From positions 1 through 38,394 of the forward strand of contig JAPKCM010000039.1 in assembly GCA_028822935.1 (NCBI GenBank): a stretch of 38,394 nucleotides of DNA. Direction: 5' to 3'. This stretch comes from Akkermansiaceae bacterium. Lineage in GTDB: Bacteria > Verrucomicrobiota > Verrucomicrobiia > Verrucomicrobiales > Akkermansiaceae. The notes under the pieces are model-generated. The model worked only from the letters and a program-made list of their open reading frames with translations, made no database searches and was not told the origin of the DNA. A program made the position numbers and the translations under genes. Shown here piece after piece: positions 35,865-38,394 of this stretch (the first letter of the stretch is position 1; every line of letters begins with the position of its first letter).

Positions 35865-38060
35865 ATGGAGTTCTCTAAAAATCAACGTCAGCCCTTGCTC
35901 ACCTGTGCCTTTGTGATGCTTGCAATTGGCCTCTTGCCATCGGCGCTGCTCGCGAACCAGGTGATCCTTCCCTTCGGATCGGTGTGGAACTACCTCGACG
36001 ACGGCAGCGATCAGGGGACGGCCTGGGTCCAGCCGGGTTTCGATGATCGCACCTGGGCTTCGGGCCCCGCACAGCTCGGCTATGGCGAACGTGATGAGGC
36101 GACGGTCGTCGGCTTCGGCGGGGTTGGCTCCAACCGCTACCCGACCACCTACTTCCGGCGCACCTTCACCATCGCCGACCCTAAAACTTTTCCAGGACTG
36201 AGGATTAGCCTATTGCGTGACGATGGCGCGATCGTCTACATCAACGGAAGCGAGGTGCACCGCTCGAACATGCCCGCTGGCGAAATCGGCTACCTCGATT
36301 TCACAACCGGTTCTCTTGGAAGTGAGGAGAAGATCCCCGACGTCTTTACGGTGTTGCCTGAGGTGCTGGTGGCGGGAGAAAATTGGATCGCAGTGGAGGT
36401 CCACCAGGAAAGACCTGGCAGCTCGGACTTAAGCTTTGACCTCAAGGCCACGGACGGCTTCTACAATGCGCCGCCGGTCCTCGAAACCGCCCTGTTGGTG
36501 ATCGATGCCAACGGCGGGACATCGCTCCATCTGAGCGCATCGGATTGTGATACTGAGGCCGATGGACTGCTCTTCAATTTCAGTGGTGTCGGCTCGGGAC
36601 GCTTCGAGTTGAAAACCGCGCCCGGCATACCGATCTCGAGCGCGACCCAAGGACAGTTTGCCACGGGTCTGGTCACCTTCGTGCCACTCGCGCAGAGCTT
36701 CAGCTCCGCAAACATCGCCGGGAAATTGGCGGAGCCCGCCCGGCACGATGAGATCTCCGGCCTCGTCGCCTCGATTAAAAACCCCGGCATCCTCTGGGCC
36801 AGCGAGGACAGTGGCAACCCGGAGACGCTGATCGCACTCGGGAGTGATGCGAGCAACCGCGGCGAGTGGACGCTGACCGGCGTGACCAACACCGATTGGG
36901 AGGATATCGCAGCCGCTGAAGTTGAGGGCCAGGCGATGCTCTACATCGGGGATTTCGGTGACAACGACGCGAACAGGACCTCTCTCAGTATTCTGCGGGT
37001 CCAGGAACCGCTGGTCACCGGCACCTCCGGCGGATCGATCCCGATCACCGACATCGAAGCGATCAACTTCCAATACCCGGCCACCCCGGCCGGCGAAGGC
37101 GGCGGCGCCGGGCGCGACGCCGAGTCGATGATCGTCGATCCGCACACGGGCGATCTCTACATCCTGACCAAACGCGAGGTCGTCGGCCGGCTCTTCCGCC
37201 TCGCCCACCAGACGAGCTACACTGGGATTCAGACGCTCGAGTACCTCGGCGATCTCCCGGCGATCACCCACGACACCGTGCATGGTTTCTCTGCGAGTTC
37301 GACCGCCGCCGACATCTCGCGCGACGGCCTCGAGGTGCTGGTGCGCAACTACGGACACGTGCAGCTCTTCAGCCGCCCAGACCTGGGCACCTCGATCGCC
37401 GCAATGTTGACCGGAAGTAAAATCGAAGACCAGCCCTTCGTCGGGATTGCACAGGAGCGGCTCGGCGAGGCAATCTGCTTCTCGGCCGGCGGCGACGGCT
37501 ATTACACCGTGAGTGAGAGCTCGGCAGCCAGGGCGGACCTACCACTCTTCTACTATCCCCGCATCCCGCTCGGCTCACCGCCGAAATTCTCCGTGACCGT
37601 CAGCGATGGATTCCTCAGCGACGGTCCTTACAGCGGCACCGTGCTATTCGACCCGAATCCGAGAGATACGTGGCGGCACTTGTTCTTCGATACCGCGGAT
37701 CTCGAGAATCCGGCGCTGGAGCAATCGCGGTGGGGAGACCTCGCCGACCCCGATGCTGACGGGCGAGTGAACTTAATGGAGTATGCTCTGGGGACCAATC
37801 CGCTCAAACTGGAAACGCCGGACAGCCTCGAAGTTATTTCGAGTCCCGCTTCCCTGATCATGATCTACGAGATCGACACCTCTAAAACGGACATCGAGTT
37901 GCGAGGGCAGACGAGTTCTGACCTCAGGAGCTGGATCGATGTTCCCGGCGAGATGTTGGCCAGCACGAATGGGATCGAGACACGCCGTGTGACAATCCCA
38001 TTGGATGACTCGGGCCCTGGGTATCTGCGCTTAAAAGTGTCCGTTCCGGATCCCGAGTGA
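35865..38060 (+). CDS. Large secreted protein: jelly-roll-like domain, beta-propeller-like core and verrucomicrobial C-terminus
   Basis: This 731-residue protein has a signal peptide (PLLTCAFVMLAIGLLPSALLA). Residues ~31-180 form a domain clearly related to the C-terminal domain of the protein at 30471-33236: GSVWNYLDDGSDQGTAWV, FDDRTWASGPAQLGYGERDE, RDDGAIVYINGSEVHRSN and WIAVEVHQERPGSSDLSFDL. A central region (~290-560) has propeller-like repeats (ISGLVASIKNPGILWASEDS, EDIAAAEVEGQAMLYIGDFG, ESMIVDPHTGDLYILTKRE). The last ~140 residues carry the module with DPDADGRVNLMEYALGTNPL, a calcium-loop-like sequence widespread in secreted proteins of Verrucomicrobiota. No catalytic motif is recognised; a binding or surface role is likely. 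GC content appears higher than in the preceding gap. Confidence 0.85.
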   Translation: MEFSKNQRQPLLTCAFVMLAIGLLPSALLANQVILPFGSVWNYLDDGSDQGTAWVQPGFDDRTWASGPAQLGYGERDEATVVGFGGVGSNRYPTTYFRRTFTIADPKTFPGLRISLLRDDGAIVYINGSEVHRSNMPAGEIGYLDFTTGSLGSEEKIPDVFTVLPEVLVAGENWIAVEVHQERPGSSDLSFDLKATDGFYNAPPVLETALLVIDANGGTSLHLSASDCDTEADGLLFNFSGVGSGRFELKTAPGIPISSATQGQFATGLVTFVPLAQSFSSANIAGKLAEPARHDEISGLVASIKNPGILWASEDSGNPETLIALGSDASNRGEWTLTGVTNTDWEDIAAAEVEGQAMLYIGDFGDNDANRTSLSILRVQEPLVTGTSGGSIPITDIEAINFQYPATPAGEGGGAGRDAESMIVDPHTGDLYILTKREVVGRLFRLAHQTSYTGIQTLEYLGDLPAITHDTVHGFSASSTAADISRDGLEVLVRNYGHVQLFSRPDLGTSIAAMLTGSKIEDQPFVGIAQERLGEAICFSAGGDGYYTVSESSAARADLPLFYYPRIPLGSPPKFSVTVSDGFLSDGPYSGTVLFDPNPRDTWRHLFFDTADLENPALEQSRWGDLADPDADGRVNLMEYALGTNPLKLETPDSLEVISSPASLIMIYEIDTSKTDIELRGQTSSDLRSWIDVPGEMLASTNGIETRRVTIPLDDSGPGYLRLKVSVPDPE

Positions 38061-38295
38061 TCAAGCCCGCGAGGGGCCTGGGGCTCCGGTTCTGGCCAAG
38101 AAAGCTCGAAGCGCATCTGGAAAATCTCTCCCGTGTCGTTCTTTCTCACCGCGACGTATCCTCTCAGCCTCTTCGACAAAAAAATACTGCCTGAGGGAGC
38201 CGCTCTATTATACCAAGTAGTGTTTCAAAAGAGACGAATGCCGGAGTGATTTCTTGAAAGGGCAAGGCGGGACGAAGGCGGGGTGCGGGAGTAGT
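38061..38295. other. Non-coding region before the heptamer array
   Basis: No plausible gene is seen on either strand. A small GCCC/GGGC hairpin follows the stop codon at 38060 without a T-run. ATACCAAGTAG at 38210-38220 repeats a word found right at the first gene's stop codon (854-864). The purine-rich tract 38225-38290 leads into the repeat array. Confidence 0.5.
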
Positions 38296-38394
38296 CCGTT
38301 ATCGGTGGTCTGTTGTCGGTGTTTTGGAACTTGAAAGTTGTCGATTGTCTGACTTTCAGAGTTCAGACAACGGACAACGGACAACGGACAACGG
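38296..38394. repeat. Heptamer repeat array in inverted orientation, reaching the window edge
   Basis: Positions 38366-38393 hold four exact tandem copies of GACAACG, with one further G at the edge, so the array probably continues. To the left, 38296-38323 can be read as four degenerate copies of the complementary heptamer (CCGTTAT, CGGTGGT, CTGTTGT, CGGTGTT), and GTTGTCG/ATTGTCT follow at about 38338-38351. The two arms meet in a hairpin with stem TTGTCTGA (38345-38352) and TCAGACAA (38363-38370). This looks like a short-period intergenic repeat family with inverted symmetry rather than a gene end. Confidence 0.8.

Follow-up and report, generated by a model that had tools for sequence, protein, structure and literature searches.

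The heptamer array at the right edge of the stretch analysed here is very probably the core of a hairpin module that lies in one copy of a non-autonomous MITE, that spread together with this element and whose units were varied by slippage. The window, by which we mean the whole stretch of DNA under analysis, is an entire contig (C58) of 38,394 bases, taken from a genome assembly of 4.59 Mb in 156 contigs. Position 38394 is thus the end of a contig, and the array length reported here is a lower bound. A first-pass annotation, made from the letters of the window, had described four exact GACAACG units on the right, degenerate complementary heptamers on the left and a common period of seven bases, and all of these are present (Table 1). 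The contig end, the MITE and the paralogous copies are missing from that description, as they are invisible without tools.

The left arm reads TCCGTTA TCGGTGG TCTGTTG TCGGTG, a degenerate reverse complement of the core GACNACN, and two further inverse units lie at 38337–38349, within the inner hairpin. At a lag of seven bases, 15 of 24 positions of the left arm match one another, a value equalled by 3 of 2,000 dinucleotide shuffles of the arm. When four consecutive units were scored against the core GAC.AC., the region 38270–38365 reached 19 of 20, compared with a maximum of 15 in 1,000 shuffles; over 76,466 positions on both strands of window 1–38260, the same score peaks at 14. The period of the left arm is therefore beyond chance. 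The arms also form an inverted repeat: the best one pairs 38296–38338 with 38352–38394 at 72% complementarity, and the DNA fold of 38270–38394 has a z of −3.8, with none of 200 shuffles as good.

Table 1. Parts of the MITE copy and of its heptamer insert at the right end of the window (contig C58)
Feature	Position	Strand	Basis
Left target-site duplication of the MITE, TTA	38208..38210	+	Equal 3-base flanks in 10 of 15 copies; the C58–C12 join gives TTA/TTA
Presumed right target-site duplication, TTA	On contig C12	not on C58	C58–C12 join
Left terminal inverted repeat of the MITE, TACCAAGTAGTGTTTCAAAAGAGACGAAT	38211..38240	+	27 such ends in the genome
MITE body as far as the insertion point	38241..38289	+	Comparison with insert-free C145 and C65
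GGTGCGGG, left copy of the direct repeat flanking the insert	38282-38289	+	Right copy at C12 bases 38-45
Heptamer insert, cut by the contig end	38290..38394	+	Rest on C12, bases 30-37 after the shared 29
Left arm, degenerate heptamers	38295..38321	-	Unit alignment, shuffle statistics
Inner hairpin CTTGAAAGT / ACTTTCAG with two inverse units	38330..38359	+	DNA folding, inverted-repeat scan
Right arm, four exact GACAACG units plus G	38366..38394	+	Exact match; ends with the contig

The bases immediately to the left of the array, 38208–38289, are part of the same element. Judged by its sequence characters, this carrier of the heptamers is a MITE: a dispersed, gene-less element with terminal inverted repeats of about 30 bases and mostly matching TWA flanks. 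A DNA search of the genome with the complete copy on contig C93 returned 58 pieces at E up to 1; with neighbouring pieces merged, our own count places the element at about 28 sites at E below 1e-6. Its ends are TACCAAGTAGTGTTTCAAAAGAGACGAAT and, inverted, TACCACTCCGCATTTCAAAAGAGACGAAT, with the outermost pattern TACCA...TTTCAAAAGAGACGAAT, and these terminal inverted repeats cover the 15–30 bases expected of a MITE. Allowing up to three mismatches, the ends occur at 27 sites, compared with 0 for a backward control. Complete copies measure 200–220 bases without the insert and 325–332 bases with it, which is too short for a transposase and leaves the element without coding capacity. Among 15 copies examined, ten have equal 3-base flanks (TTA/TTA in eight, TAA/TAA in two), and five, including the insert-bearing C93a and C93b, have no perfect 3-base duplication. 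The TWA duplications presumably recall those of IS5-type elements. In a mechanical test against open reading frames of at least 150 codons, none of 26 copies lay inside such a frame and eight overlapped the end of one, so that the copies are dispersed and mostly intergenic; the 26 are what remained of 30 loci after L023, L037, L044 and L045 had been set aside as duplicates or a contig edge.

No pair of terminal repeats among the 27 end sites in the assembly encloses a gene that could mark an autonomous partner. A partner with the same ends is not strictly required of a MITE, and it may be lost or unassembled. A REP or REPIN, a palindrome of 20–40 bases with a GTAG tag, was rejected on the grounds of size, terminal inverted repeats and TWA flanks. 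Several copies carry internal deletions (L028, L039 and L042), the extreme being two 41-base remnants that keep both ends and a TTA duplication. The protein encoded before the element, at 35865–38060, contains a much expanded domain: its residues ~30–200 match 41 places in the genome, all 41 of which were scored, and matches occur in 27 of 27 genomes of the genus, with 5 to 41 in each.

The heptamers form the core of an insert of about 100 bases that is present in four copies of the element, namely C58/C12, C93a, C93b and C140. The inverted heptamer pairs in these four copies are alike enough to derive from one module. A search of the other 144 genomes of the family for the insert gave nothing below E 0.014, a match of about 20 bases. 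Within the genome, the string GACNACNGACNACNGACNAC, which covers three degenerate units, was found at up to one mismatch in ten places, all within the four insert-bearing copies (C12 being counted with C58), and a stand-alone STRR array is ruled out on this basis. At two mismatches there are 14 more places, eight of them elsewhere, and the control gives nine hits in all. The exact array occurs in the assembled genome only at the end of C58 and in the first 29 bases of contig C12. The first-pass annotation had named confinement of the heptamer to this place as grounds for refutation; within the genome the exact array is nearly so confined, the degenerate one is not.

The site and the lengths of the insert can be read by comparison with insert-free copies and among the paralogues. 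Insert-free C145 and C65 each have a single GGTGCGGG, whereas in C58/C12 and C93b one copy stands at either edge of the insert; in C93a and C140 the left copy is degenerate. The insert site corresponds to the place of the hairpin loop in several insert-free copies, for example GTGGTC CGGG GACCAC. Five of seven insert-free cores that were folded give a six-pair stem with a four-base loop; the two cores of the C145/C65 type, the subtype nearest to the insert-bearing copies and the one that took up the insert, adopt another fold with no simple hairpin. Measured from GCGGG to GCGGG, the insert is 107 bases long in C93a, 107 in C140, 114 in C93b and, provided that C58 joins C12, 121 in the joined copy. 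The step from 107 to 114 is a single heptamer, TCCGTTA, in the left arm, and the step to 121 is a single heptamer in the right arm, where the four units are identical. Compared with its paralogues, whose units at that place are degenerate, the right arm of C58 is homogenized. The first-pass annotation had ascribed the contrast between the arms to recent slippage expansion on one side. Slippage is supported by these seven-base steps and by the homogenized arm, as far as the paralogous sequences can tell; the one-sidedness is unsupported, as the copies differ in the left arm too, by one heptamer.

The left half of the element lies on C58 and the right half on C12, whereas the three other insert-bearing copies are complete. 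The ends of the two contigs overlap by exactly 29 bases, and we infer that the two halves are one copy cut by the assembly. In a gene-order test in four relatives, no protein of C12 (0 of 4) matched near the orthologues of the last gene of C58; this result says little about adjacency, because TruA and DedA, the gene's own neighbours on C58, are also absent there. The contig may stop because assembly failed to pass through the repeat, in which case the true array may be longer. Contigs C145 and C65, which are likewise broken inside the element, overlap by 55 bases rather than 29. The cause of the break at 29 is accordingly uncertain, and the longer overlap suggests that the assembler's word exceeds 29 bases and that the real array perhaps has more than four units. 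The heptamer repeat would account for two assembly breaks. The C12 half is itself among the copies with an internal deletion, GGCTCTT being joined directly to TTGAACTGCGG (C12 bases 100–130).

The element itself extends beyond this genome. At E up to 0.001 it matches 13 of 145 genomes of the family, this one included, from 4 of 16 genera; because scoring was limited to five candidates in each genome, relatives may hold more copies than were counted. Insert-free elements are present in the records of Akkermansiaceae MAG_316, g3_MAG_00010, Rubritalea profundi and a Verrucomicrobiales bin, and Akkermansiaceae MAG records with the element include JANRFH and JALZWA. Five elements of named records agree letter for letter with those of the family genomes. 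A scan of a genome collection, which possibly leaves out the window's own genome, gave 29 stretches, 20 of which were set aside by organism name alone. Among the nine inspected, six are real elements (L125, L128, L131, L140, L143 and L145, with L128 cut by a contig end), L134 has one element end only, and L126 and L146 look like chance. The two halves of the terminal inverted repeats co-vary across lineages: in nine lineage representatives of 13 full elements, the element's own pairs score 14.6 on average and mixed pairs 8.8, with 13 of 10,000 permutations as good. Some left ends in this test start two bases early, which lowers the scores of the own pairs. We document this MITE family of the Akkermansiaceae and make no claim that it is undescribed.

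Heptamers of the same form were then sought across the phylum. Three GACNACN units followed by GAC occur in 44 of 387 genomes and in 35 of 198 genera. The control, the string read backward and also with a 7-base period, is present by our own count in 26 of the 387; arrays of this period are evidently common in the phylum, and the GACNACN core is only moderately favoured. The likeness to cyanobacterial STRR repeats that had been pointed out for the window holds for the form of the repeat; it does not extend to a stand-alone array, since the array here is part of a MITE. The exact string GACAACGGACAACGGACAAC is found in 2 of 387 genomes, the window's own and G118. Among the places listed for six of these genomes, most are long runs whose units all point the same way. 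Of 31 contexts, 2 (L010 and L114) have a convergent partner with three or more units, as do 3 of 15 stretches drawn from three genomes (L212, L214 and L206, the last being the same place as L010). By the rule of the script, 12 of the 15 stretches had an array of three or more units, and the two inverse two-unit pieces of L217 were not counted as a pair. By these counts convergent pairs make up a minority of contexts, and the reading that arrays elsewhere in the phylum are always inverted pairs was rejected.

Several features of the arrays in other genomes were also recorded. An edge resembling GCAACTGAC is common to several GACNACN arrays of G118 and G012, two genomes from a different family of the phylum (L212:1962-2037, L214:3270-3332 and L206:2243-2310). 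Some of these arrays apparently lie directly against a start codon (AACAACTGACATG in L214 is one case), a position that many TAACTGA repeats of Beggiatoaceae also take. The convergent hairpin of L212 is strong (z −5.6) and that of L206 weak (z −1.1). Other period-7 units (such as GAACACT, GTTAGTG and GATAGAG, identified by eye) stand beside GACNACN arrays in L102, L116, L118 and L119, indicating that heptamer repeats of several sequences cluster in those genomes. Long perfect heptamer arrays (GACCACC and GACCACT) occur in the window's family at G319:C1:3506002-3506263 and in G327:C12, one of them over 250 bases long.

The sequence of events that we favour can be worded as follows. The heptamer module would have arisen in, or entered, a single MITE once, and would then have been copied along with the MITE to four sites by transposition in trans. 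Comparison of the paralogues suggests that units were gained, lost and homogenized by replication slippage on hairpin-prone DNA, and the exact four-unit run would be the stretch homogenized most recently. We infer the order of entry, spread and length change from the present copies. The spread of degenerate heptamer arrays has no settled mechanism, and an array-carrying MITE whose paralogues in a single genome are partly empty and partly filled offers a concrete route by which an array can spread within a genome; the paralogous inserts, moreover, allow the gain and loss of units to be read.

Two other histories of the insert were weighed against this one. The heptamer hairpin could itself have inserted, as an STRR-like unit whose separate entry into the MITE left the 7–8-base duplication GGTGCGGG. 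That string is single in C145 and C65 but doubled around the insert in C58/C12 and C93b, and degenerate GACNACN arrays, some in convergent pairs (L206, L212, L214 and L114), exist elsewhere in the phylum, both of which agree with such an event. In this genome, however, the module is found only within the MITE, which leaves no sign of another independent insertion; the same direct repeat would also result if slippage duplicated GTGCGGG; and the left repeat is degenerate in C93a and C140. We regard an own insertion as unlikely. The general form of the idea, that facing heptamer arrays enter hairpin loops independently, duplicating 7–8 bases, and afterwards grow by whole heptamers in both arms, strikes us as a little less likely again; were own insertion true, the MITE copies of one genome would record an STRR-type life cycle of entry, hitch-hiking spread, length change and homogenization. 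Conversely, the insert might be ancestral, with the insert-free copies arising by deletion between the short direct repeats on either side of the hairpin. Such an arrangement is a classical substrate for deletion, and the junction falls exactly at the direct repeat. Against this stand the elements found in other genera, which are all insert-free and in several cases have the small hairpin intact at that point, and the lack of any better insert match in the 144 other family genomes than the one given above, which together make such a loss highly improbable.

Two further readings concern the exact run and the purpose of the insert. The four-unit run might be an assembly artefact at the contig end, with a real copy resembling the degenerate right arms of the paralogues. 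C58 and C12 both stop at the same 29 bases, and the paralogues do have degenerate units at that place; yet the run is attached to different unique flanks on the two contigs and occurs at no other place in the assembled genome, and we consider an artefact very doubtful. Equally small is the chance we give to a functional RNA or DNA signal used by the host, such as a terminator, a transcript stabilizer or a protein-binding site. The intergenic position would suit such a signal, as would the DNA folds of the four inserts, which beat those of shuffles with z of −2.4 to −4.2 (C58 being cut at the contig end). On the other side, simple consensus scans of 37900–38394 gave no terminator-like or promoter-like site, and an Rfam search of ten element loci returned no family above threshold and one chance-level match far from the element. 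Moreover, the insert was found in only one genome and four element copies, and changes in the inner stem among the four paralogues are uncompensated by eye, although four copies are too few to judge. A host role for the insert is not needed to explain the array. The preferred reading thus remains a hairpin module that travelled with its MITE and changed in length by slippage.

Heptamer repeats and repeat-bearing MITEs are known from other bacteria, and the array described here can be compared with both. The STRR sequences of cyanobacteria are degenerate seven-base tandem units and are reportedly also present within an RNA gene. They differ from the heptamers here in sequence and phylum, and a location within a MITE is not stated for them in those parts of the sources that we draw on. 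A literature search found nothing pairing a heptanucleotide with Verrucomicrobia. The TAACTGA repeats of Beggiatoaceae are likewise intergenic heptamer repeats of patchy distribution (PMC4679880). According to the portion of that report used here, they are exact direct repeats, mostly near start codons, with just a single indirect copy in the genome concerned, and no spreading mechanism was evident to its authors (PMC4679880). The GTAG-tagged REPs abundant in Opitutus terrae are, like the present element, short dispersed palindromic repeats in a verrucomicrobial genome, and the left end of our element happens to contain GTAG, as does the tag of REPs; as described in the excerpt available, however, REPs are palindromes of 20–40 bases, whereas the element here measures 200–220 bases and has terminal inverted repeats and target duplications (PMC3733652).

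The closest parallels are found in two other systems, each compared on the basis of partial accounts. In Xanthomonas, GGGANTN arrays number 186 and 183 per genome, with 70 convergent pairs in one genome and 75 in another; as here, these are heptamers with two variable positions, often in convergent arrays able to form stem-loops (PMC4692102). The Xanthomonas repeats are G-rich, and the passages concerned do not state a location in a MITE, whereas the heptamers here lie inside one (PMC4692102). BrickBuilt of Porphyromonas gingivalis is an intergenic MITE with 19 copies in one strain and a limited host range, and resembles our element in being a bacterial MITE with a central tandem repeat predicted to form long stem-loops (PMC4596501). 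As far as that description goes, its repeat unit has 23 bases, stands in tandem without spacers and belongs to the definition of the element, in contrast to the facing heptamer arms here, which occur in another phylum and are carried by only four copies (PMC4596501). A MITE that bears facing heptamer arms where its loop would be did not come up in the literature searched, mostly at the level of titles and abstract openings. A MITE with an internal tandem repeat and convergent heptamer pairs are each already known, and the two are combined in this element.
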